Assembly (NCBI GenBank): GCA_021789695.1
Contig: JAJYJH010000003.1
Location: 1-64,000 of the forward strand
Origin: a bacterium
GTDB lineage: Bacteria > Elusimicrobiota > Elusimicrobia > Elusimicrobiales > UBA9959
Length of the DNA: 64,000 bases
Direction: 5' to 3'
Shown here: positions 16,166-31,048 of the stretch, piece by piece
Layout of the letters: every line of letters starts with the position of its first letter
Position numbering within the stretch: position 1 is the first letter of the stretch
Made by a program: the position numbers and the translations under genes
Notes under the pieces: generated by a model
The model's database searches: none
The model's input: the letters and a program-made list of their open reading frames with translations, nothing else
What the model was told of the DNA's origin: nothing

Positions 16166-17197
16166 ATGAAAGCCATAACGAAGACCTCTAAATCCCGCGG
16201 CGCGGCGTACCGCGACGCCGAGGTGCCGGAGACGCCCAGGGACGGGCTGTTGATACGCGTCACGGCGGCTTCAATCGGCCCTGGAGACCTGGCCGTGTAC
16301 AATTCCGCGGGGCCGGACGGCGCCCCGCCTTTCCTGCCTTTCGTCTTCGGCCAGGAATTTTGCGGCGAGGTGGTGCAGATAGGAGCCCAGGCCAAAGGCT
16401 TCGATAAGGGCGACTTCGTCTCGGTGGAATCGCATATCTTCTGCGGAGTCTGCGGACAGTGCCGCAACGACCAGCGGCACATATGCCGGGACCTCAGGGT
16501 GATAGGACGCGACGTGCCTGGCGGCCTGGCGGAATACGCGGCGGTCCCTGCGCGCTGCGCGTGGAAGCACACAGACGATTCGCTCAAGGACATCGGGGCC
16601 GTAATGGCCCCTTTCGGCAGCGCCGTGCATGCCGTGCTGTCGGAGGACCTCGTCGGCCGCAGTGTGGTCATCTCGGGGAACGCTCCGCACGGACTTTTCG
16701 CCGCCGGCATAGCGAGGGCTGCCGGCGCCAAGCGGGTCATCGCTCTGGACCCTTCCCCATACCGCCGGGCCCTCGCGCTTAAGCTGGGTGCCTCCACGGC
16801 GCTGGACCCGGCGGACACGGACTGCCTTTCCCGGCTCTCCCGGCTCTGTCAGGATGGCGTCGACACTGTCATAGAGATGAGCGGCAGCCCGCGCTCGGTG
16901 GCGCTGGGTCTCAAGGCGCTGCGCCCCGGCGGACGCATGGTCGCCTTCGGACTGCCAGCCGAGAACCTGGACTTGGACTACGCAGGAGACATCGTCAAGC
17001 GAGGTCTGAGGCTGGAGGGCATCTCCGGGCGCGAGATCTTCCGCAGCTGGTACAAGATGGAGAGCCTGCTCAAGTCCGGCGCAGTTAACCCGCGTCCGGC
17101 GATAACGCACCATTTCAAGTTCAAGGACTTCAAGAAGGCCTTCGACCTGATAAATTCAAAGGAAAAGAAATGCGGCAAGATAATTCTGACCCCGTGA
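16166..17197 (+). CDS. Threonine-dehydrogenase-like MDR protein lacking catalytic zinc ligands
   Basis: The 343-residue medium-chain dehydrogenase aligns without large gaps to E. coli L-threonine 3-dehydrogenase, with WYKMESLLKSG and THHFKFKDFKKAFD near the end. It lies 20 nt upstream of kbl, the classical tdh-kbl order (threonine to 2-amino-3-ketobutyrate). The structural zinc cysteines are intact (C92, C95, C98, C106). The catalytic zinc site is not: the position of E. coli Cys38 is Gly38, Thr40 is Gly40, His43 is Ala43 and His63 is Gln63; Glu64 remains. Rossmann segment VVISGNAPHGLFAAGIA is near 172, with altered glycines. An SD (AAGGAG) precedes ATG. It may have lost or changed chemistry. 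Confidence 0.8.
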   Translation: MKAITKTSKSRGAAYRDAEVPETPRDGLLIRVTAASIGPGDLAVYNSAGPDGAPPFLPFVFGQEFCGEVVQIGAQAKGFDKGDFVSVESHIFCGVCGQCRNDQRHICRDLRVIGRDVPGGLAEYAAVPARCAWKHTDDSLKDIGAVMAPFGSAVHAVLSEDLVGRSVVISGNAPHGLFAAGIARAAGAKRVIALDPSPYRRALALKLGASTALDPADTDCLSRLSRLCQDGVDTVIEMSGSPRSVALGLKALRPGGRMVAFGLPAENLDLDYAGDIVKRGLRLEGISGREIFRSWYKMESLLKSGAVNPRPAITHHFKFKDFKKAFDLINSKEKKCGKIILTP

Positions 17198-21300: not shown

Positions 21301-21597
21301 TTAGGCGACCTTCACAGAGATCTTGGCCAGGTACTTGTCCAGATCGTCGGAGGGACGCGGTATCACGTGCATTCCGACGAGCTCTCCGACCTTCTGTGCG
21401 GCCGCCGCGCCTGCTTCTACGGCGGCGCGCACCGCGCCGACCTCGCCGGCGCACAGCGTGGTCATGTAGCCGGAGCCAATCTTCTCGTAGCCGAGCAGAC
21501 GTACCTTGGCCGCCTTGCTCATGGCGTCGGAGGCTTCAATCATGCCGATGAAGCCTTTGGTCTCTATCATGCCCAACGCTTCTTTAGGTTCAGACAT
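21301..21597 (-). CDS. BMC-H hexameric shell protein (copy 2)
   Basis: The 98-residue single BMC domain (Pf00936) begins [20 protein letters not shown] and contains the pore loop YEKIGSGYM, the PduA/PduJ-type Lys-Ile-Gly-Ser-Gly pore. It ends with [14 protein letters not shown]. Hexamers tile the facets of the shell and the small polar pore passes metabolites. Compared with copy 1 it has a few extra N-terminal residues (MSEPK) and a basic, shorter tail. An AAGGAGAAAG SD precedes ATG. It follows deoC by 28 nt. Confidence 0.96.
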
Positions 21598-21625: not shown

Positions 21626-22606
21626 TCAATATTGCCCTTTGGCGGCTTCTCCGCCTGAAACTATCGCTATGCTGGCGCTCGTGCCAAGGCGGTTGGCGCC
21701 GGCCTTGATCATGGCCGCGGCGACCTCGGCGTTCTTGATGCCGCCGGAGGCCTTCACGCCCATCTCGGGGCCCACGGTCTCGCGCATCAGGGCCACGTCC
21801 TCTGGGGTGGCGCCGCCCGAGCCAAAGCCGGTGGAGGTCTTCACGAAGTCGGCCTGCGCCTGCTTTGACATCTTGCAGGCCCGTATCTTCTCGTCGCGGG
21901 TCAGGTAAGAAGTCTCGAGGATGACCTTCAGCACTTTGCCGCGGGTGGCCTCGCGCACGGCCTTTATGTCGTCGAGGACCAGCTGGTCGTTGCCGCTTTT
22001 CAGCGCGCCGATGTTAATGACCATGTCTATCTCCTCGGCGCCATTGGCTATGGCGTCGCGGGCCTCTATGGCCTTGACGGTCGGCGTCGTCGAGCCGAGC
22101 GGGAAGCCGATGACCGTGCAGACCTTCGCGCACGAGCCGCGCAGCAGACGGGCGGAGAGCGCGACATAGGCCGGGTTCACGCAGACGGACGCGAAGCCGA
22201 AGCGGCGCGCCTCTTCGCAGAGCTTGCCGATCTCCTCCTGCGTGGCGTTGGCCTTGAGCAAGGTATGGTCTATCATGCCGGCTATGGACGAACTGGCTGC
22301 GTTCGGATTGCAAAAACTTACGCGGTCGGCCGAGGCCTTTATCTGCTGCGGGGTATAGCTGTTCAGCGGGTTGCAACTCTGGCAGCTGGGACCGCAGGTA
22401 TTAGGTTCCAGGCGGCATTCGTCTCCGGAGCAAACCTTCTTTTCCTGGGCGCCCGGCTTGTTCACAAGCGGGTGCTGGAAGACCTTGCCGGCTGTGCCGA
22501 TGGAAACGGAGTCGCCGGGCATCTTGCGGGGAGCGGCGCCCCCCTCTTTCTCGCGCATTATTCTGGCCACCTCGGCCGCTATCTTCTTTATATCCTCTTC
22601 GTTCAT
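21626..22606 (-). CDS. deoC: Deoxyribose-phosphate aldolase with BMC encapsulation peptide and Cys-rich linker
   Basis: The 326-residue enzyme would split 2-deoxyribose-5-phosphate into glyceraldehyde-3-phosphate and acetaldehyde. The aldolase domain (about 107-326) has [17 protein letters not shown] and [11 protein letters not shown] with D194. VKTSTGFG holds the Schiff-base Lys K256 and VKASGGI holds K285. Typical bacterial DeoC is about 220-260 residues. The extra 105 N-terminal residues comprise an amphipathic helix (about 3-20, [15 protein letters not shown]) like the encapsulation peptides of AldDH and PduL. A linker then carries five cysteines (C59, C64, C71, C75, C78). It is 1 nt after the preceding pentamer gene. 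This is the signature enzyme of the compartment. Confidence 0.95.
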
Positions 22607-22607
22607 A

Positions 22608-22886
22608 TCATTTCTCCAGGTGTATCTTATCCACTATGCCGGCTATAACCGTGCGCACCGGCGCCTTCGGGTTCCTCAATATCTTGCGGGCGCTGCCGCC
22701 CTCATCCACTATCAGCACGGTGTCCCCCACGCCGGCGCCCTGGTTGCCGTCTAGCGCGAGCTGCGCCTCTCCGGAGAGCGTGCCGTCAGCCGGGCTCACG
22801 GGCTTCACCAGCAGCAACGTGGCGTTCTTCAGCCCCGCGTGCTTGCGGGTGGCCCAGACGTTCCCTATCACTTTGGCTACAAACAT
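22608..22886 (-). CDS. BMC-P pentameric vertex protein (copy 3)
   Basis: The 92-residue EutN/CcmL/PduN-family protein (Pf03319) begins [16 protein letters not shown] and carries LLLVKPVSP, the [18 protein letters not shown] loop and a C-terminal VIAGIVDKI strand. Pentamers cap the icosahedral vertices. The deoC ATG follows 1 nt after its stop. GGSAR is the canonical pentamer loop and makes this the most standard of the three copies. Confidence 0.95.
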
Positions 22887-22891
22887 AAAAT

Positions 22892-23188
22892 TCAGCCCAG
22901 CCTCTTGCCGTCTATGATGCCCACGATAGCCGCGTCCACCGGCGGCGGGTTGGACCGGGAGGCTGTCTCGCCCTCCCAGCCCTCGAAGGCCACTATGGCC
23001 TCGCGCGAGGCCACGAAGAAGACGGTCTCCCCCGCCCCCGCGCCCACGGTATCTCCGGCCACCAGCGGATCGCCGGACGGTTTATCGGTCTCCCAATCGA
23101 GAGGCTGGATAAGGAGCAGCGTCTTCTGCTCCAGCCCACAACAGTAGCGGGAGCAGAACACCCTTCCTATGATCTTGGCTTGTTTCAT
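22892..23188 (-). CDS. BMC-P pentameric vertex protein (copy 2)
   Basis: The 98-residue EutN/CcmL-family protein starts KQAKIIGRVFCSRYCCGLE, then LLLIQPLDW, VGAGAGETVFFVASREA and a C-terminal AAIVGIIDGKRL strand. The usual GGSAR loop reads ASREA and is followed by a longer acidic insertion (about 68-84). Three cysteines cluster near residues 12-17, absent from the other copies. It overlaps nothing and lies 5 nt before copy 3. Confidence 0.93.
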   Translation of the reverse strand: MKQAKIIGRVFCSRYCCGLEQKTLLLIQPLDWETDKPSGDPLVAGDTVGAGAGETVFFVASREAIVAFEGWEGETASRSNPPPVDAAIVGIIDGKRLG

Positions 23189-23195
23189 TCTCTTG

Positions 23196-23642
23196 CTAGC
23201 AGCAGCGCTGCTCTATGGCGGTTATCTTGTCGAGGCGCTTCTGGTACTTGCCGCCTTCGAACGGCGTGGAGAGCCACACCTTGAGCATCTCCTGCAGCGC
23301 CAACTCGCCGTGCGTCTTGCCGCCGAGGCACAGTACGTTGCAATCCTCGTGGGCCGCGGCGAAGCGCGCCGAAATCGTGTCGTAGGCGCCCACCGCGCGG
23401 ATGCCATGTATTTTGTTGGCGGCCAACGGCATGGCGCCGTTGAAGCCATCCACCAGCACGCCCTTGTCGAACTCGCGCTTGTGTACGGCCTCTCCGACAA
23501 GCAGCGCTATGTCCGGAAAGTCCACAGGCTCGGCCGAGTAACAGCCGAAATCCGTCACTTCGTGGCCGAGACCCTGCAGGAACTTCTTAAGCCTCTCCTT
23601 CGCCTCAAAACCCGAGTGGTCCGCGCCTATGACTATTCTCAT
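23196..23642 (-). CDS. rpiB: RpiB/LacA/LacB-family sugar-phosphate isomerase, catalytic Cys replaced by Asp
   Basis: The 148-residue protein aligns to E. coli RpiB end to end: GADHSGFEAK at the start, AANKIHGIRA, HEDCNVLCLGG and KITAIEQR at the end. RpiB interconverts ribose-5-P and ribulose-5-P. The active-site segment CGTGxG of E. coli is DGFNGA here, so Cys66 aligns with D65 and Thr68 with F67. The actinobacterial alternative Glu is also absent (Met). The phosphate-binding His in HEDCN and one Arg are kept. Inside the BMC operon, 8 nt after BMC-T, it probably handles a pentose phosphate upstream of DeoC. The exact reaction may differ from classical RpiB. No encapsulation helix is seen. Confidence 0.88.
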   Translation of the reverse strand: MRIVIGADHSGFEAKERLKKFLQGLGHEVTDFGCYSAEPVDFPDIALLVGEAVHKREFDKGVLVDGFNGAMPLAANKIHGIRAVGAYDTISARFAAAHEDCNVLCLGGKTHGELALQEMLKVWLSTPFEGGKYQKRLDKITAIEQRCC

Positions 23643-23650
23643 GCTGCCCC

Positions 23651-24199
23651 CTAGATAACCTCGCCTATATGCTCGTGGGCGTTAGAAATAACGATCCGGC
23701 TCACCACTGCCCCGTTGCCGACGGCCTTCACTCCGGCGGCCACGGCGGCGCGTACCGCGCCGGGCTCTCCGACCACGGTGAAATAGCCCTTGCCGCCTAT
23801 GCCCTTGCCGGTGTTCACCTCAGCCACGTGGACGTAGGCGGCCTTGGCGGCGGCGTCGGCGGCGAACAGCGCCGGCAGCGCTTCCTTCGTCTCGACGATC
23901 CCCACGGCTTCCAGCTTCTCCGGCTTAATCTTCTTGTTGAGCGCCGCCAACGCGCCGGCATGGATGTTGCGGATGATGTGGCGGGCGATGACGGTGTCGC
24001 CGGCTATCTCGGCGCCCTTCGCCAGCGAGGATTCCACCTCGCCTACCGGGCCGGAGATTACGACAATGTACTTGCCCTTGGAGATGGCCTGGTGCACCTC
24101 GGGCTTCACACCGGCGGCCTTGCACATCCCGTCAAGGGCCTCGATACCCTTGGCTATCGAGGAGGTCTCCATCAGTCCCACGGCTATGTTCGCCTGCAT
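23651..24199 (-). CDS. BMC-T tandem-domain trimeric shell protein without Fe-S cysteine
   Basis: The 182-residue protein has two fused BMC domains: about 5-88, starting AVGLMETSSIAKGIEALD, and about 95-180, starting EAVGIVETKEALPALFAADAA. It resembles PduT in layout. At the position of the PduT pore cysteine it has S40 (AISKGKY). It is therefore not expected to bind the central [4Fe-4S] cluster and may form a metabolite pore. It is encoded between aldehyde dehydrogenase and rpiB, with a good AAAGGAG SD. Confidence 0.93.
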   Translation of the reverse strand: MQANIAVGLMETSSIAKGIEALDGMCKAAGVKPEVHQAISKGKYIVVISGPVGEVESSLAKGAEIAGDTVIARHIIRNIHAGALAALNKKIKPEKLEAVGIVETKEALPALFAADAAAKAAYVHVAEVNTGKGIGGKGYFTVVGEPGAVRAAVAAGVKAVGNGAVVSRIVISNAHEHIGEVI

Positions 24200-24209
24200 A
24201 AAAACTCCT

Positions 24210-25622
24210 TTAAGCTATCCTTAGGTCGCCCACCACGCTGCACTGCAGCGGCCGCACGAAATGGCTGGTCTTGGTTATGCCGTCGCCCGTCGGCGTGCCG
24301 ATGGACATGGAGGCGTAGCCCTCGCCGAGGCCGAGGCCGTGCAGCGTACAGCCGTTCTTGACGAAGATGGAGCAGGCCATGCGGCGCCCCATCTTCGTCA
24401 TATTCTTGACGTTCGTGGAATACATCCCCGCGCTGTGGTGGTTATCCCACTCCACCTTCTTGGCCGTCTCTATGGCGGCGTCCACGTCGCGCGCCACCGT
24501 GACCGGCAGCACCGGCATGAGCTGCTCGCTGACCACGAACGGGTGGTCGTTGCCGACTTCCGCCCACAGCACGCGTACCTCGTCGGAGAGGCTAAGGCCT
24601 ATGGCCTTCGCTATCACGGAAGGATTCTTGCCTATGAACTTGCGGTCCACCTTGGGCTCGCGGCCCGGCTCGAGAATGGCTATCTTCGCGAGCTGGTCCA
24701 TCTGCGCGGTGGTAAGCTCGTAGGCGCGCTTGTCGGCGCGCATAGCCTCAAGGAAGCGGCCCCGCGCGGCCTCGGTCACTATCACTTCCTTCTCGGCGAT
24801 GCAGAGCACGTTGTTGTCGAAGCCGCATCCGGTGATTATCTCGGAGGCGCAGTCCGGAAAAACCGCGGTCTCGTCCACCACCACCGGCGGGTTGCCCGGG
24901 CCGGCGGCTATGGTCTTACAGGGCTTGCCGGCGGTCATGGCCACCTTCACTATGGCCGGGCCGCCGGTAACGATGTTCATGTTCGTGCGCGGGTGGCAGA
25001 GCAGCTGCTTGGTGGCCTCCTGCGTGGGGTTGGCGATGGTAGTCACCAGGTTCGCCGGCCCGCCCGCGGCGACTATGGCCTGGTTGAGCGAGCGTACGGC
25101 GTCGGCCACGCAGCCCTTGGCGGCGGGATGCGGCGAGAAGACCGCTGAATTTCCGGCGGAGAGGATACCGATGGAGTTGCTTATGATCGTCGCCACCGGG
25201 TTGGTGGACGGTGTGATGGCGGCAACCACTCCGAACGGCGCGAACTCCACGAGAGCCAAGCCCTTGTCGCCGGTGTAGGCCAGCGCGCGCAGGTCCTCTA
25301 CACCCGGGGTCTTGTCCGCGCAGACCAGGTTCTTGAGCACCTTGTCGTCCACGCGGCCCATGCCGGTCTCGGCCACAGCCATCTCGGCCCAGCGGCGGGC
25401 GTTGGCGCGCGAGACCTCGCGTATCGCGGTTATGATTTTCTCCCGGGCGGCGAGCCCCAGGTCCTGGAAAACAGGCTGGGCACGGCCGGCGGCGCCCACG
25501 GCTTGGTCCACGGTGTCGAACACCGGGCCGCCCGAGGAGGCCGGCGGCGCCGCGGGCTCGGCCTCGAGGTTCCGCACGACCTCGGCGACTATCTTCTTGA
25601 GCTCTTCCTCGGTAAGGGGCAT
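24210..25622 (-). CDS. CoA-acylating aldehyde dehydrogenase (PduP/EutE type), BMC-targeted
   Basis: The 470-residue enzyme would oxidise acetaldehyde from DeoC to acetyl-CoA with NAD+. The N-terminal helix TEEELKKIVAEVVRNLEAE (about 4-22) plus a Pro/Ala linker is a typical encapsulation peptide. The catalytic Cys is C274 in FDNNVLCIAEKEV, as in EutE/PduP. ITPSTNPVATIISNSIG, TGGPAIV and AAGPGNPPVVVDE belong to the nucleotide-binding and substrate regions. It is flanked by BMC-P and BMC-T genes and is one of the two core metabolosome enzymes with PduL. Confidence 0.96.
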   Translation of the reverse strand: MPLTEEELKKIVAEVVRNLEAEPAAPPASSGGPVFDTVDQAVGAAGRAQPVFQDLGLAAREKIITAIREVSRANARRWAEMAVAETGMGRVDDKVLKNLVCADKTPGVEDLRALAYTGDKGLALVEFAPFGVVAAITPSTNPVATIISNSIGILSAGNSAVFSPHPAAKGCVADAVRSLNQAIVAAGGPANLVTTIANPTQEATKQLLCHPRTNMNIVTGGPAIVKVAMTAGKPCKTIAAGPGNPPVVVDETAVFPDCASEIITGCGFDNNVLCIAEKEVIVTEAARGRFLEAMRADKRAYELTTAQMDQLAKIAILEPGREPKVDRKFIGKNPSVIAKAIGLSLSDEVRVLWAEVGNDHPFVVSEQLMPVLPVTVARDVDAAIETAKKVEWDNHHSAGMYSTNVKNMTKMGRRMACSIFVKNGCTLHGLGLGEGYASMSIGTPTGDGITKTSHFVRPLQCSVVGDLRIA

Positions 25623-25631
25623 GATGACCGC

Positions 25632-25940
25632 CTATCCTTCAAGTTTGTCCGCGGACTTCTTGAACACTATCTTACCGCCCTTCTCGATAGTGTCCACTAT
25701 CGCGAAGACGGTGCAGTCCACTGGGGTGTTCTCGGTCTTGGAAGTCTGCCTGGCGCTCGAGCCCTGCACCAGCAGCACCAGTTCTCCGGAGCCTGCGCCT
25801 ACGGCGTCCACGCCCACGAGCGTGTTGCCCTTCGGCTTATCGTCCAGGCCCACCGGCTGCACCATCAGCAGCTTTGTCCCCACGAGTTTGTCGTCCTTGC
25901 GCGTACAGACCACATTCCCCACCACGCGTGCAAATAACAT
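25632..25940 (-). CDS. BMC-P pentameric vertex protein (copy 1)
   Basis: The 102-residue EutN/CcmL-family protein starts MLFARVVGNVVCTRKDDKL. LLMVQPVGLD, VGAGSGELVLLVQGSSAR and VFAIVDTIE follow. The loop reads GSSAR, close to the canonical GGSAR. The C-terminus is longer and Lys-rich compared with copy 3. It is separated from the upstream BMC-H gene by a 123-nt gap that contains an inverted-repeat element, and has its own strong SD (GGAGG) in that gap. Confidence 0.95.
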   Translation of the reverse strand: MLFARVVGNVVCTRKDDKLVGTKLLMVQPVGLDDKPKGNTLVGVDAVGAGSGELVLLVQGSSARQTSKTENTPVDCTVFAIVDTIEKGGKIVFKKSADKLEG

Positions 25941-26063: not shown

Positions 26064-26348
26064 TTACTTCTTTTTAGGTTCGCTGATAGGGAGTTTGCCT
26101 TCGAGGTCGCCGTGCGGCTGGGGGATCACGTGCACGCTGACCAGCTCACCCACTTTCTGGGCGGCGGCGGCGCCGGCGTCGCAGGCGGCGCGGCAGGCGG
26201 CGACTTCGCCCCTAAAAAGTATGGTAACAAGTCCGGAGCCGATCTTCTCGTAGCCCACTATATGGACGTTGGCGGCCTTAACCGCGGCGTCTGCGGCTTC
26301 CACGCAGGCCACGAGGCCTTTGGTCTCTATCATTCCGAGTGCTTCCAT
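26064..26348 (-). CDS. BMC-H hexameric shell protein (copy 1)
   Basis: The 94-residue single BMC domain starts [20 protein letters not shown] with pore loop [10 protein letters not shown], identical in type to PduA/PduJ. It ends [17 protein letters not shown] and a Lys-rich tail. It is the first facet protein gene in transcription order and has a strong TAGGAGG SD. Position right after pduL and before the inverted-repeat element could let it be expressed at a different level from downstream genes, as needed for the most abundant shell component. Confidence 0.97.
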
Positions 26349-26384: not shown

Positions 26385-27014
26385 TCAAACTATGTACGCC
26401 TGGTCGCCGTTCTTAAGGCCGGAGGCGTTGGCCTCGTCCGTGTCCAGATGCAGCTCCAGGGCGTACTTGTCAGAAACGCGGCACAACACGCGCTCGTAAA
26501 TGACCTCGCGCTCGGTAGCGCGGCCGCAGAGCACGCGCACTTCCTGCCCGTCATTGACCTTGTATTTTTCTGCTTCCTTGGTATGAAAATGTATATGGCG
26601 CTTGGAGACGATGACTCCCCCGGAGAGCGTGACCGACCCCTTAGGACCGGCCAGCCTGATGCCGGGGGTATTGTCGAGCTTGCCGGAGTCGCGCACCGGC
26701 GGTTCCACTCCGAGCCTGCGGGTGTCGGCCAGCGAGACTTCCACCTGCGAGGCGGACCTGAACGGGCCGAGCACTCGGACGTCTTTGATGCTCCCTTTGG
26801 GGCCCTCTATCGTGACGGTCTCCGCGCAGGCGAACTGTCCGGGCTGTTTGAGGTCCTTGTGGACCGTCATCCTGTCGTATCCGAACAGCGCCTTGAAATG
26901 CTCAGCCGTAAGGTGCATATGGCGATTGGAAATACCCACCGGCACCGGCAGGGAGGAACGCTCCTGCCGCAGCTGCAGGTCTTCGAGTATCTCTTTGAGC
27001 AGTTTTTCGTTCAT
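26385..27014 (-). CDS. pduL: Phosphate propanoyltransferase, PduL type, BMC-targeted
   Basis: The 209-residue enzyme transfers acyl from acyl-CoA to phosphate, here probably making acetyl-phosphate and recycling CoA inside the shell. The N-terminal helix EKLLKEILEDLQLRQE (about 3-18) is an encapsulation peptide. Zinc-binding His residues appear in PVGISNRHMHL (H32, H34) and SKRHIHFH (H140, H142), the two PduL domain signatures. Length matches PduL (about 210). Acetyl-phosphate could then yield ATP through an acetate kinase encoded elsewhere. Confidence 0.96.
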   Translation of the reverse strand: MNEKLLKEILEDLQLRQERSSLPVPVGISNRHMHLTAEHFKALFGYDRMTVHKDLKQPGQFACAETVTIEGPKGSIKDVRVLGPFRSASQVEVSLADTRRLGVEPPVRDSGKLDNTPGIRLAGPKGSVTLSGGVIVSKRHIHFHTKEAEKYKVNDGQEVRVLCGRATEREVIYERVLCRVSDKYALELHLDTDEANASGLKNGDQAYIV

Positions 27015-27029
27015 AGGATCGCCCGGCCG

Positions 27030-27809
27030 TCACCGGCTCAGCGCCGGCTGAAAATGTATCACGCGCAGGAACTTGTCGGCCTTCAGGCTCTCGCCTCCGA
27101 CCAGCGCGCCGTCTATGTCGGGCTGCGCCATCAGTTCGTCTATGTTGTCGGCCTTCACGGAGCCGCCGTAGAGTATGCGCACGGCCCCGGCGTAATCCTT
27201 GCCGTAGATACGCTCCATCTGCTTGCGCACGAAAATATGGGCGTCCTGGGCCTGGTCGGGGGTGGCGGTCTTGCCGGTGCCTATGGCCCAGACGGGTTCG
27301 TAGGCGATGACGGCCTTAGCTGCCTCGGCGGGAGTGATGCCGGCGAACGCGCCGGTCAGCTGGGTTTCCAGCACGCGGTAGGTCTTCTGGGTCTCGCGCT
27401 CCTCCAGCGTCTCGCCGATGCAGAGCACCGGCACGAGGCCGGCCTTTATCGCGGCCTTCATCTTCTTGTTGACTACTTCGTCGGTCTCAAGGAAGATCTT
27501 GCGGCGCTCGGAGTGGCCTATGATAGCGTGGGTGCAGCCGGCGTCAAGAATCTGGGCCGGAGATACCGCGCCGGTGAAGGCGCCTTTCTCCTCCCAGGCC
27601 ACGTCCTGGGACGAGAGGAATATCTTAGAGCCGGCTATCGCGGCTTTTACCGCGTGCAGGTTGGTGAAAGTAGGGGCGAGCAGCACTTCGTGCTTCAGGT
27701 CCGGGTCCAGGCCTTTTTTCACCGCGGCGGCCAGGTCGGCGGCCTCCCTGGAGGTCAGGTGCATCTTCCAATTGCCTGCTATCATCGGGACCCTTTTATC
27801 GGAAGCCAT
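27030..27809 (-). CDS. tpiA: Triosephosphate isomerase
   Basis: The 259-residue glycolytic enzyme interconverts glyceraldehyde-3-P and dihydroxyacetone-P. GNWKMH (catalytic Lys), GHSERR (His), YEPVWAIGTGKTA (Glu) and LYGGSV (phosphate loop) are intact, so it should be active. It has no encapsulation helix, suggesting a cytosolic enzyme that draws off DeoC's glyceraldehyde-3-P. It lies in the BMC operon between the PduT-like gene and pduL, with an AGAGGAG SD. A TATAAT in the 43-nt gap upstream could be an internal promoter. Confidence 0.97.
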   Translation of the reverse strand: MASDKRVPMIAGNWKMHLTSREAADLAAAVKKGLDPDLKHEVLLAPTFTNLHAVKAAIAGSKIFLSSQDVAWEEKGAFTGAVSPAQILDAGCTHAIIGHSERRKIFLETDEVVNKKMKAAIKAGLVPVLCIGETLEERETQKTYRVLETQLTGAFAGITPAEAAKAVIAYEPVWAIGTGKTATPDQAQDAHIFVRKQMERIYGKDYAGAVRILYGGSVKADNIDELMAQPDIDGALVGGESLKADKFLRVIHFQPALSR

Positions 27810-27852: not shown

Positions 27853-28401
27853 CTAGATTATCTCCCGCAACAACTCCGGCCTGGGCTGCGGGATGACCAC
27901 CTTCTCCACCAGCAACCCCTTTTTGGCGGCTACGGCCGCGCCGGCCGCCACCGCGCTCTCGGCAGCGGCCACGGAGCCTGTAAGGGTAACAAAGGCCTTC
28001 CCCCCCAGCGCCATCGCCAATCGCACCTCGAGGAGCTTCACCGGCGCGGCCTTCACGGCCGCGTCGGCGGCCTCTACCAGCGCGGAGACCGAGAAGGCCT
28101 CTATAATACCGAGCGCCTCCAGTTTCTCAGGCACCGTGGTCCCCTCTATGGCCGGGAACACGTCCGGATGTATGTTGGGGATGACGAAACTGTCCACCAG
28201 CGAGTGGGCGGCCTTGGCGGCGCCGGCCTCAACGGCGGCGTTCACGTCGCCCACGTCTCCGGAGACCAGCACGATGTACTTGCCGGCGCAGATGGAGCGG
28301 GAAAGGAGCATCCGCACTTTGGCTGTCTTGAGCATCGCGTCGGCCGTCTCGAGGCCCCTGGCGACGCTGGAAAGTTCTACTCCGCCGATGGCGTTAAGCA
28401 T
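27853..28401 (-). CDS. pduT: BMC-T trimeric shell protein, PduT-like with Fe-S pore cysteine
   Basis: The 182-residue tandem BMC-domain protein aligns closely with Pdu PduT: GGVELSSVARGLETADAMLK, LSRSICAGKYIVLVSGDVG, VDSFVIPNIHPDVFPAI and VVIPQPRPELL. C38 falls exactly at the PduT Cys that coordinates a [4Fe-4S] cluster at the trimer three-fold pore. This suggests electron transfer across the shell. Its gene starts 1 nt after the pduS-like stop, matching the known PduS-PduT interaction in propanediol microcompartments. Confidence 0.93.
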   Translation of the reverse strand: MLNAIGGVELSSVARGLETADAMLKTAKVRMLLSRSICAGKYIVLVSGDVGDVNAAVEAGAAKAAHSLVDSFVIPNIHPDVFPAIEGTTVPEKLEALGIIEAFSVSALVEAADAAVKAAPVKLLEVRLAMALGGKAFVTLTGSVAAAESAVAAGAAVAAKKGLLVEKVVIPQPRPELLREII

Positions 28402-28402
28402 A

Positions 28403-29746
28403 TCAGGCTATTATCTCCACGTATCTCTCGTTGACCCGGCCGACGGTGCCGGAAACGCTGGCGTGCACCGGGCAGCCCAGCGCGCCCGCTGGGACGCCCC
28501 CCACCACGGCGCCTTTCTCTACCCGCTGGCCTTCCTTCACCGCCGGGGCGCAAGGCGCGCCGATGTGCTGGGCCATCATTATCCTGACCCTGGACGGGCT
28601 CAGCGTACCGTCGTTCCATGGAGCGTCCTTGTTGTAGTCATCCAGACCCAGGCGCTTCACCAGCCTGGAGACCGGAACTTTGCGGAAATCTCTTACCGGA
28701 TGGGCTTCCGGCTTGCTGGCGGTATTTAGCCGGAAGTTCTTCACCCCTATCTTCGCCTCGCGCAGGTCGGCCTTGGCGGCCACGCAAGCCTCCCTCGGGT
28801 TAAGCCCCTCCGGGCAGGAATAGAGCGAGCACAACGAGCACTCGCAGCAGAGCAGGCCGTACTGGCTGTGCAGCTTATGTTCCGGGCCGCCCGCGAACAA
28901 CAGGGAGCGCATCACGCGGTGCGGCTGCACGTTGTGCCCCAGCAGGTAGCGCGGGCAGAGCTCGGTGCAGTAGGAGCACTGGTCGCAGGCCGAGCGGCCT
29001 ATGCGCGAGAAAACCGGACGGGACTGCGTTTTTTTCGCGATGAGCTGATGCGTTTTCGGCAGGACGATAATGCCCGCCGACGCCTTCACCACGGGGAGGT
29101 CGAAATCCGTCCGCACATTGCCCATCATCGGACCGCCGTCTATGTAGGCCGGGTCCTTCACGGAAAAACCGCCGCAGAACTCCACGCATTCGCGCCACGC
29201 GACGCCCACGGGTACGCGGAAAGTGGCGGGCCTCTTCACGCCGCCGTTGACCGTGACGAAGGTCTCGGTGACCGGCCTTGGCGCGAACGCGGCGTTATAG
29301 AGGGTCTCGACGTTGCTGACCACGCAGCCTACGTCCAGCGGGATGCCGCCCGGTGGCACTACGCGCCCGGTGGCCTCGTAGACAAGGCACTGCTCGTCGC
29401 CTGCGGGGTAGTAGTCGCCCATCTCCAGCACCGAGACGTTCCTGCGCGAGGCCGCTATCTCTTTAAGCCGCGGTATCAGCTTCTCGTGCTTCCGCTTGAT
29501 GCCTACCATCCCCCTGGACGCGCCCACGGCCCTCATCAGCAGGCCCAGCCCGTCAAAGACCTTCTCCGGCCAGTGCTCGAGTATCTTCTGGTCCTTCTTA
29601 AGCAACGGTTCGCACTCCGCGGCGTTCACCAGGGCGATCTCGGCCTTCCCCTGCGCTTTCACGTAGGACGGAAAACCGGCGCCGCCGGCCCCTACAACGC
29701 CGGCGGTGCGGAGGTTCCCGCTGAACTCGGCTGAGAAGTCCGACAC
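28403..29746 (-). CDS. pduS: PduS-like Fe-S flavoprotein (RnfC-related), electron transfer
   Basis: The 447-residue protein starts with a GTG at 29746, 2 nt after the aminotransferase stop; the reading frame upstream of it is antisense-like noise. RTAGVVGAGGAGFPSYVK (about 13-30) is the RnfC/NuoF-type NADH/FMN glycine-rich motif. An SLBB-like region follows. Two [4Fe-4S] sites are at C254/C257/C260/C264 and C300 or C301/C303/C306/C311. In Pdu systems PduS reduces cobalamin; no B12 enzyme is present here. The likely role is therefore NADH oxidation and passing electrons to the PduT-like shell protein. An RnfC-type membrane complex is less likely because no other rnf gene is nearby. Confidence 0.9.
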   Translation of the reverse strand: MSDFSAEFSGNLRTAGVVGAGGAGFPSYVKAQGKAEIALVNAAECEPLLKKDQKILEHWPEKVFDGLGLLMRAVGASRGMVGIKRKHEKLIPRLKEIAASRRNVSVLEMGDYYPAGDEQCLVYEATGRVVPPGGIPLDVGCVVSNVETLYNAAFAPRPVTETFVTVNGGVKRPATFRVPVGVAWRECVEFCGGFSVKDPAYIDGGPMMGNVRTDFDLPVVKASAGIIVLPKTHQLIAKKTQSRPVFSRIGRSACDQCSYCTELCPRYLLGHNVQPHRVMRSLLFAGGPEHKLHSQYGLLCCECSLCSLYSCPEGLNPREACVAAKADLREAKIGVKNFRLNTASKPEAHPVRDFRKVPVSRLVKRLGLDDYNKDAPWNDGTLSPSRVRIMMAQHIGAPCAPAVKEGQRVEKGAVVGGVPAGALGCPVHASVSGTVGRVNERYVEIIA

Positions 29747-29748
29747 GG

Positions 29749-30978
29749 TTATTTCGCGGCGGCGAGGCGCTTCTTGACCGTGGTGGCCAGGCGCTTTATC
29801 CCTTCGTCGATCTCGTCGAGAGTGGGGTAGGAGAAGTTCAGGCGCATCGTGTTCTTGCCCGAGCCGTCGCAGTGGAAAGCCGAGCCTATCACGTAGGCCA
29901 CGTTCTCCTTTATCGCGTCGTGGAACATATCGTCGGCGCTCATGCCCTCCGGCAGGCGCACCCACAGGAACAGTCCGCCCTCGGGCTTTGTCCAGGTGAC
30001 GCCTTCCGGCATATACTTCTCCAACGCGCCCACCATAGCGTCTTTCTTGGCCTTGTAGGCTTTCTTTACCTTTTCCACGTGCGCCTCGAACACGCCGTTG
30101 CGCAGGAAGTCGGCCGCGATAAGCTGGTTCAGGCTGGAGGAGCAGAGGTCCAGCGACTGCTTGAGGATCTCCATCTTCCGGACTATGTGCGGATGGGCCA
30201 GGATGACGCCCAGGCGCAGGCCCGGAGCGAAGGTCTTGGAAAAAGTGAACAGCGAGATGATATTGCTGGTCCTGCGCGTCTCCTGGTCCAACTTGTAGAG
30301 CATCTTCGGAGCCTTGCCCTCGAAACGGATCTGGCGGTAGGGGGAATCCTCTATTATCGCCACGTCGTACTTCTCGGAAAGCTCGATTACCTTCAGCCGC
30401 TTCTCCTCGGAAAGGGTCACGCCGCTCGGGTTCTGAAAGTCCGGGACGAGATAGACGAACTTGTAGTGCTCGTCCTGCGATTTGAGCCAGGACAGGCGCT
30501 CCTCCAGCTCGGTCACGGAGACGCCATCCTCCTCCAGTTTGACCCCGACGAAGTCGGCGCCGTAGGACTTGAACACCTGCAACCCGCCCATGTAGCTGGG
30601 CTTCTCCACCAGCACCGGGTCGGAGGCATCTATGAACAGGCGTCCGACCATGTCCAGCGCCTGCTGGCTGGCCGTGGTGACTATCACGTTCTCCGGCTTG
30701 GCCTCTATCCCCTCGTGCTTCTTGAGGAACTTCAGGAATTCCTCCTTGAGCTCCGGCAGGCCGTCAGTAGGGCCGTACTGCAGCGCCACGCGGCCCTTCC
30801 TGGCCATTATCTCCTTCACGGAATCTGTCACAAAATCGTACGGAAAATGTTCCGGGTCCGGCAGGCCGCCGGCGAAAGAGATGACACCGGGCTTGTTGGT
30901 GATCTTGAGCAGTTCGCGAATAACGGAAGCCTTCGTGCGCCTGGGCGCGGTAGCGATGTTCTTTGTGATGTCTATCAT
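29749..30978 (-). CDS. PLP-dependent class I aminotransferase, LysN/2-aminoadipate type
   Basis: The 409-residue enzyme of aminotransferase fold I resembles 2-aminoadipate/MocR-type transaminases. It has SFAGGLPDPEHFP (about 35-47), LQYGPTDGLPELK, VPDFQNPSG, IIEDSPYRQIRFEG and FTFSKTFAPGLRLG, which holds the PLP Lys. LRLNFSYP has the substrate-carboxylate Arg. The ATG at 30978 has GGAGGGA 5 nt upstream. It is first in the BMC transcript and almost touches pduS. Substrate is not known. It could be unrelated housekeeping (lysine, branched or aromatic amino acids) or feed the compartment. Confidence 0.88.
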   Translation of the reverse strand: MIDITKNIATAPRRTKASVIRELLKITNKPGVISFAGGLPDPEHFPYDFVTDSVKEIMARKGRVALQYGPTDGLPELKEEFLKFLKKHEGIEAKPENVIVTTASQQALDMVGRLFIDASDPVLVEKPSYMGGLQVFKSYGADFVGVKLEEDGVSVTELEERLSWLKSQDEHYKFVYLVPDFQNPSGVTLSEEKRLKVIELSEKYDVAIIEDSPYRQIRFEGKAPKMLYKLDQETRRTSNIISLFTFSKTFAPGLRLGVILAHPHIVRKMEILKQSLDLCSSSLNQLIAADFLRNGVFEAHVEKVKKAYKAKKDAMVGALEKYMPEGVTWTKPEGGLFLWVRLPEGMSADDMFHDAIKENVAYVIGSAFHCDGSGKNTMRLNFSYPTLDEIDEGIKRLATTVKKRLAAAK

Positions 30979-31018
30979 AAGTCCCTCCGCATTGATGGCG
31001 GCGCGGGGCCGCATTAAC

Positions 31019-31048
31019 AATTTACTCAATTAATACAAGTTCTGGCAA
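31019..31048 (-). promoter_or_regulatory. Putative promoter of the BMC operon
   Basis: On the minus strand TTGCCA (31048-31043) and TAAATT (31024-31019) are 18 nt apart, in the only AT-rich stretch upstream of the aminotransferase. A leader of about 35 nt with an SD follows. No operator or riboswitch-like structure is obvious. Confidence 0.35.

Follow-up and report, generated by a model that had tools for sequence, protein, structure and literature searches.

Electron passage out of a microcompartment shell was suggested for the PDU organelle by Parsons et al. (2010; PMC2982820), who reported that PduS carries FMN and two coupled clusters, undergoes NADH-dependent reduction and copurifies with PduT. 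For the PDU homologues, FMN, the two clusters, NADH oxidation, PduS-PduT binding and a cluster in PduT have been shown by others (PMC2982820, PMC6325248). The same passage via PduS/PduT has been discussed for glycyl-radical (GRM) shells (Ferlez et al., 2019; PMC6325248), a PduT-like redox carrier was suggested in Listeria (Zeng et al., 2021; PMC8547011), and for Bilophila, whose locus has no alcohol dehydrogenase (ADH), it was proposed that the electrons of acetaldehyde are possibly exported via PduS and PduT (Burrichter et al., 2021; PMC8667426). The idea of export from a shell without an ADH is therefore already published, and the interpretation as such is not new. Trans-shell electron transfer by the two proteins has nevertheless been debated since 2010, because B12 reduction in PDU and radical activation in GRM shells offer other uses for the electrons. 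Sugar-phosphate-utilising (SPU) loci have neither of the two. According to the passages on SPU loci in the two papers that describe them, more than 280 such loci occur in 26 phyla (Sutter et al., 2021; PMC8217296), and those of Atribacteria include PduS, PduL, an aldehyde dehydrogenase (ALDH) and, once, triosephosphate isomerase (TPI), with no alcohol dehydrogenase (Axen et al., 2014; PMC4207490).

The locus analysed here lies in a 64-kb stretch of DNA (the window) from an Elusimicrobiota MAG, a 2.45-Mb draft genome that is 95.7% complete. It forms one minus-strand gene run from 29746 down to 21301 (Table 1), which includes seven shell genes and holds all BMC-domain genes of the draft genome, and its gene order is identical in the 20 congeners wherever the contig is long enough.

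Table 1. Genes of the microcompartment run in their order from 29746 downwards, followed by the linked gene upstream of it (window coordinates).
Feature	Position	Strand	Basis
PduS-like flavo/Fe-S protein, 447 aa, GTG start, RnfC/NuoF-related	28403..29746	-	FMN/NADH domain and two [4Fe-4S] motifs; Pfam, 21-row alignment
PduT-like BMC-T shell protein with pore cysteine C38	27853..28401	-	two BMC domains; alignment with 3PAC
Triosephosphate isomerase (TPI)	27030..27809	-	PF00121, 311 bits
PduL-type phosphotransacylase	26385..27014	-	PF06130; NF011652 above cut-off; encapsulation-peptide-like N-terminal helix (by eye)
BMC-H shell protein	26064..26348	-	PF00936
BMC-P (EutN/CcmL) vertex protein	25632..25940	-	PF03319
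CoA-acylating aldehyde dehydrogenase (EutE/PduP family)	24210..25622	-	PF00171; NF011927 566.7 bits vs cut-off 403; encapsulation-like N-terminal helix (by eye)
Second BMC-T shell protein, SKGK, without pore cysteine	23651..24199	-	PF00936 x2
RpiB-type sugar-phosphate isomerase	23196..23642	-	PF02502
BMC-P vertex protein	22892..23188	-	PF03319
BMC-P vertex protein	22608..22886	-	PF03319
DeoC deoxyribose-phosphate aldolase with ~110-aa N-terminal extension	21626..22606	-	PF01791; TIGR00126 288 bits, above cut-off
BMC-H shell protein	21301..21597	-	PF00936
Class I/II PLP aminotransferase, 2-nt gap upstream of pduS	29749..31029	-	PF00155; linked gene

The presence of DeoC and RpiB in a shell locus defines the SPU type. 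PF01791, PF02502, PF00936 and PF03319 occur together in the one gene run, and the CoA-aldehyde dehydrogenase and PduL both pass the cut-offs of their models (NF011927 and NF011652), whereas no annotated gene in the run encodes the B12 diol dehydratase, ethanolamine lyase or PduQ/EutG that mark a PDU or EUT type. Judged by its genes, the locus is a further member of the published type, sharing with the SPU loci of the passages cited above the DeoC-type aldolase (pfam01791), RpiB (pfam02502), the CoA-ALDH, PduL and the shell genes; it differs from those accounts in its Elusimicrobiota host and in the pairing of a PduT-like cysteine-bearing trimer with PduS, which is documented here (PMC4207490, PMC8217296). 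With PDU it has in common a putative NADH:FMN reductase, predicted to carry two [4Fe-4S] clusters and to bind a PduT trimer; in PDU, however, PduS serves B12 reduction together with PduO and diol dehydratase while PduQ recycles NAD+, and none of these is encoded in the SPU locus (PMC2982820). GRM shells are likewise B12-independent, have pduS almost always beside pduT and share the cysteine motif C-P/S/A-G-K, but contain a glycyl-radical enzyme and an activase able to use electrons (PMC6325248). The isethionate microcompartment of Bilophila wadsworthia also combines PduS and PduT homologues with the lack of a B12 enzyme and of an in-locus alcohol dehydrogenase; its signature enzyme, in contrast, is the glycyl-radical isethionate lyase and its locus is without DeoC, RpiB and TPI (PMC8667426).

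The pduS-like gene begins with a GTG at 29746 and ends with its stop at 28405-28403, and the ATG of the pduT-like gene follows at 28401, which confirms the 1-nt gap described in an earlier note on this DNA. The PduS-like protein contains PF01512, PF10531, PF13534 and PF13375, all four in the right order and the same four that Ferlez et al. (2019; PMC6325248) give for PduS. It carries two cluster motifs, C254xxC257xxC260xxxC264 and C300xxC303xxC306xxxxC311, as well as GAGGAG, an instance of the nucleotide motif GxGxxG, and the eight cluster cysteines and GAGGAG are invariant in all 21 rows of an alignment of the window with the 20 congeners. From these features the protein is predicted to bind FMN and to oxidise NADH. 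Its best PDB relative is a solved RnfC; a role as RnfC/Rnf subunit was rejected, with TIGR01945 reaching 229.3 bits at a cut-off of 245.95 and no other RnfC-like match in the genome (PF01512).

The pore cysteine of the adjoining trimer was likewise borne out: in the alignment with the solved PduT (3PAC, and also the homologue 3NWG), C38 falls on the pore cysteine, and it is invariant in the same 21 rows. The second trimer of the locus provides a built-in control, reading SKGK (as in the window) or SRGK, with no cysteine. Since C38 is conserved in 21/21 rows and this other trimer has S-K-G-K at the position, the match is more than chance. The protein is named PduT-like here because it does not reach the curated cut-off of the NCBIfam PduT model TIGR02526 (130.5 bits vs 250.3). 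A [4Fe-4S] cluster held by C38 may sit in the trimer pore.

The earlier note had reasoned that, with no diol dehydratase, cobalamin gene or PduQ/EutG in the locus, NAD+ recycling inside the shell would rely on electron transfer through the shell rather than on ethanol formation. The premise holds: over about 14-38 kb of the window, which takes in the locus and the genes around it, none of the annotated genes is a diol dehydratase, Fe-ADH, B12 or glycyl-radical enzyme gene. A genome-wide check for a PduQ-like dehydrogenase with an encapsulation peptide also came back empty, and the genome has no PduQ/EutG-type or AdhE-type enzyme, as only one PF00465 match is present. This single Fe-ADH (L001) lies on another contig between unrelated genes, scores 248.7 bits to PRK15138, which we take to be the YqhD model, against 107.9 to EutG, and has no N-terminal extension; it appears to be a YqhD-like, cytosolic enzyme. 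Two Zn-type matches were rejected as encapsulated alcohol dehydrogenases, being threonine-3-dehydrogenase-like (by a PF08240 search, which does not extend to short-chain and aldo-keto reductases). In the window itself a divergent threonine-3-dehydrogenase-like gene is found at 16166-17197 (+), with 320 bits below its cut-off, and a bona fide one resides on contig C26. An encapsulation peptide on an alcohol dehydrogenase is in any case a weak means of refuting export, since PduQ itself enters shells without a peptide of its own (PMC6325248). A route for NADH oxidation in the cytosol is available: the genome has complex I genes, with NuoF/E adjoining NuoD, G, H, L and M, and another cluster of the NuoF type that includes a molybdopterin subunit.

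The distribution of the pair was surveyed in 341 Elusimicrobiota genomes, with PduS counted at E up to 1e-80 and Fe-ADH at E up to 1e-15; the genomes are MAGs, and absence calls hinge on their completeness. BMC genes occur in 128 of the 341, with the SPU type confirmed for only part of these and at least two (G319 and G324, loci L168 and L169) looking like another type. A EutG-like gene lies near the pair in L169. PduS is encoded in 83 of the 341 genomes, all 83 of them with BMC genes, and in none of the 213 BMC-less ones (Fisher p about 1e-46, kinship uncorrected). In 44 of 46 further PduS loci a cysteine-bearing PduT adjoins PduS, and the other two are cut by a contig end. Six BMC domains are counted in 48 of 58 high-quality PduS-positive genomes and at most four in all 22 high-quality PduS-negative ones: the two-domain PduT is present or absent along with PduS. 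These observations support PduS and PduT as one module that occurs only in genomes with microcompartment genes.

The position of the module varies. The pair stands within the locus, between ALDH and RpiB, in four families (f19, f26, f28, f29), and as a satellite away from the SPU genes in several others (f2, f6-f8, f13-f15) as well as in two genomes of the source genome's own family (G156, G165). For 11 genomes whose SPU locus is without pduS, a complete lack of the pair was ruled out, as it is present there as a satellite. The PduS tree requires three changes of arrangement, and pairwise distances of PduS correlate with those of PduT (r 0.94) and of ALDH (r 0.92); tree and correlations fit a long joint inheritance. 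As a separate observation, the PLP aminotransferase gene is directly upstream of pduS in 20/20 congeners and adjoins it even at satellite pairs (L142, L162); in other families it does not accompany the pair, and L069 has it on the opposite strand, beyond the locus. Among relatives without an organelle, the one fairly complete congener lacking BMC genes and PduS (G047, contig C19:5329-5865) has an AdhE-sized Fe-ADH frame of 917 aa, and among the matches listed many BMC-less relatives have Fe-ADH frames of ~880-900 aa while BMC-bearing relatives of the class have frames of only ~380-470 aa.

The same data bear on the view that PduS is a relic or free-flavin reductase, left over from the corrin/flavin reductase of a PDU ancestor and with no trans-shell role, as was raised for SPU loci in the pertinent passage of Axen et al. 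(2014; PMC4207490). A leftover of this kind is hard to reconcile with the invariance of all cluster cysteines and C38, with a pair that is never found apart and survives the move to satellite sites, or with the absence of PduS from all BMC-less genomes, and we regard it as very improbable.

Whether the pair takes the place of an alcohol dehydrogenase can be read from the 80 high-quality BMC-positive genomes, in which PduS and Fe-ADH co-occur in 41, PduS alone is present in 17, Fe-ADH alone in four and neither in 18. The two are not complementary, and a model in which the wire replaces the dehydrogenase was rejected as a general rule. In the 13 "neither" genomes that were examined, the SPU loci are all complete and have a single BMC-T with the pore motif ARGK or PRGK. 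No hidden pore cysteine was seen in the trimers of PduS-less loci, no other redox gene was recognised in the 13 loci, and no Zn-ADH with an encapsulation peptide was evident in the PduS-less genomes (30 loci read), whose Zn-type dehydrogenases are threonine-dehydrogenase-like or quinone oxidoreductase-like and without such peptides. Among the congeners, inserted open reading frames in the loci are glycosyltransferase-like, hypothetical or nuclease/ATPase-like, with no match to the ADH queries. In several relatives the SPU locus (L023, L028, L036, L046, L110, L084) is broken up by genes of no apparent relation to it, namely glycosyltransferases, DNA methyltransferases and an ATPase, while shell and enzyme genes are kept. 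As there are complete SPU loci without PduS, cysteine-bearing PduT or a genomic Fe-ADH (L213-L225), the module is not needed for the pathway to operate. For the SPU loci of this phylum the absence of an alcohol dehydrogenase is the default and does not predict the pair; on its own it should not count as evidence for a wire.

The argument of the earlier note thus stands in part. Electron transfer through the shell is favoured by a pair that is a conserved module in a locus with no ADH, B12 enzyme or glycyl-radical enzyme to explain it otherwise, but the step from a missing dehydrogenase to reliance on the wire fails on the 18 high-quality shell genomes with neither PduS nor Fe-ADH and on the YqhD-like Fe-ADH of the source genome itself. 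Since other SPU shells do without it, we regard the pair as an optional module for electron export and not as a proven sole route of NAD+ recycling.

In the organelle that we envisage, DeoC would cleave deoxyribose-5-phosphate to acetaldehyde and glyceraldehyde-3-phosphate, the CoA-aldehyde dehydrogenase would convert acetaldehyde to acetyl-CoA and NADH, being the presumed source of the latter, and PduL would recycle CoA with formation of acetyl-phosphate. PduT would hold PduS at the luminal face, where PduS could oxidise NADH via FMN and its two [4Fe-4S] clusters and pass single electrons to the PduT pore, where three C38 residues would hold a further cluster; PduT in turn would hand them to a cytosolic acceptor. 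We infer the formation of the clusters, the outward direction and the acceptor; in sum, surplus electrons probably leave through the shell by way of the two-gene module. An SPU metabolosome with PduS/PduT as an optional module for electron export, supplementing and not defining NAD+ recycling, is the account we favour on balance. Counting against export are the failure to pass TIGR02526 and the potential of PduT, cited as +99 mV (PMC2982820), which is far above that of NADH, together with the lack of a known cytosolic acceptor.

Where Fe-ADH is lacking, in 17 high-quality PduS-positive genomes, the pair may serve as the principal route, and in other genomes at least as a safety valve. A bolder version, which we hold to be somewhat doubtful, takes pduS-pduT as a self-contained, relocatable plug-in that wires an otherwise closed SPU organelle to the cytosol, with lineages switching between wired and unwired states and with the pair as the sole recognisable route of luminal NAD+ recycling in those 17 genomes. 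The same 17 genomes weaken the opposite proposal of an overflow valve, in which NAD+ is mainly recycled otherwise, through NADH/NAD+ exchange via shell pores or a piggy-backed luminal reductase such as a YqhD-like Fe-ADH, while PduS/PduT drains only excess or stray electrons. In its favour, SPU loci with neither pair nor Fe-ADH exist, an Fe-ADH is kept in the source genome and in 41/58 high-quality PduS-positive genomes, and the peptide-free entry of PduQ provides a precedent for piggy-backing; the Fe-ADH of the source genome is, however, YqhD-like, unlinked and without N-terminal extension, and we judge this proposal to be rather unlikely.

The debate could be advanced in this phylum, as Elusimicrobiota offer a natural paired comparison of nearly the same organelle with an in-locus pair, a satellite pair or none, so that exchange of a single two-gene module would put the export hypothesis directly to the test. 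Across the 341 genomes the pair behaves as an optional plug-in that never occurs without organelle genes.

Electrons might also flow inward, the pair bringing cytosolic reducing power to a luminal reaction or keeping luminal thiols or clusters reduced, as has been proposed for glycyl-radical shells (PMC6325248). A candidate recipient would be the N-terminal extension of DeoC, whose conserved CxxC-type cysteines could need a reductant; genomes that lack PduS have the cysteine-rich extension too, however, and the locus encodes no reductive enzyme for the lumen. Moreover, PduS is predicted to oxidise NADH, which the luminal ALDH would already supply. We consider inward flow improbable. The extension is of note in itself. 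It spans ~110 aa (window 22277-22606, minus strand) and comprises an encapsulation-like helix, a GTAGKVF motif and a cysteine-rich linker with CxxC-type spacing. Nearly all of the SPU DeoCs of Elusimicrobiota that were compared (L039-L114), with or without PduS, share the motif, conserved as (T/S)(I/M)G(T/S)(A/S)GKVF, and the CxxC-type cysteines; the extension is possibly a metal or cluster site or a core-assembly tag. In the DeoC of L114 the SAGK motif appears three times.
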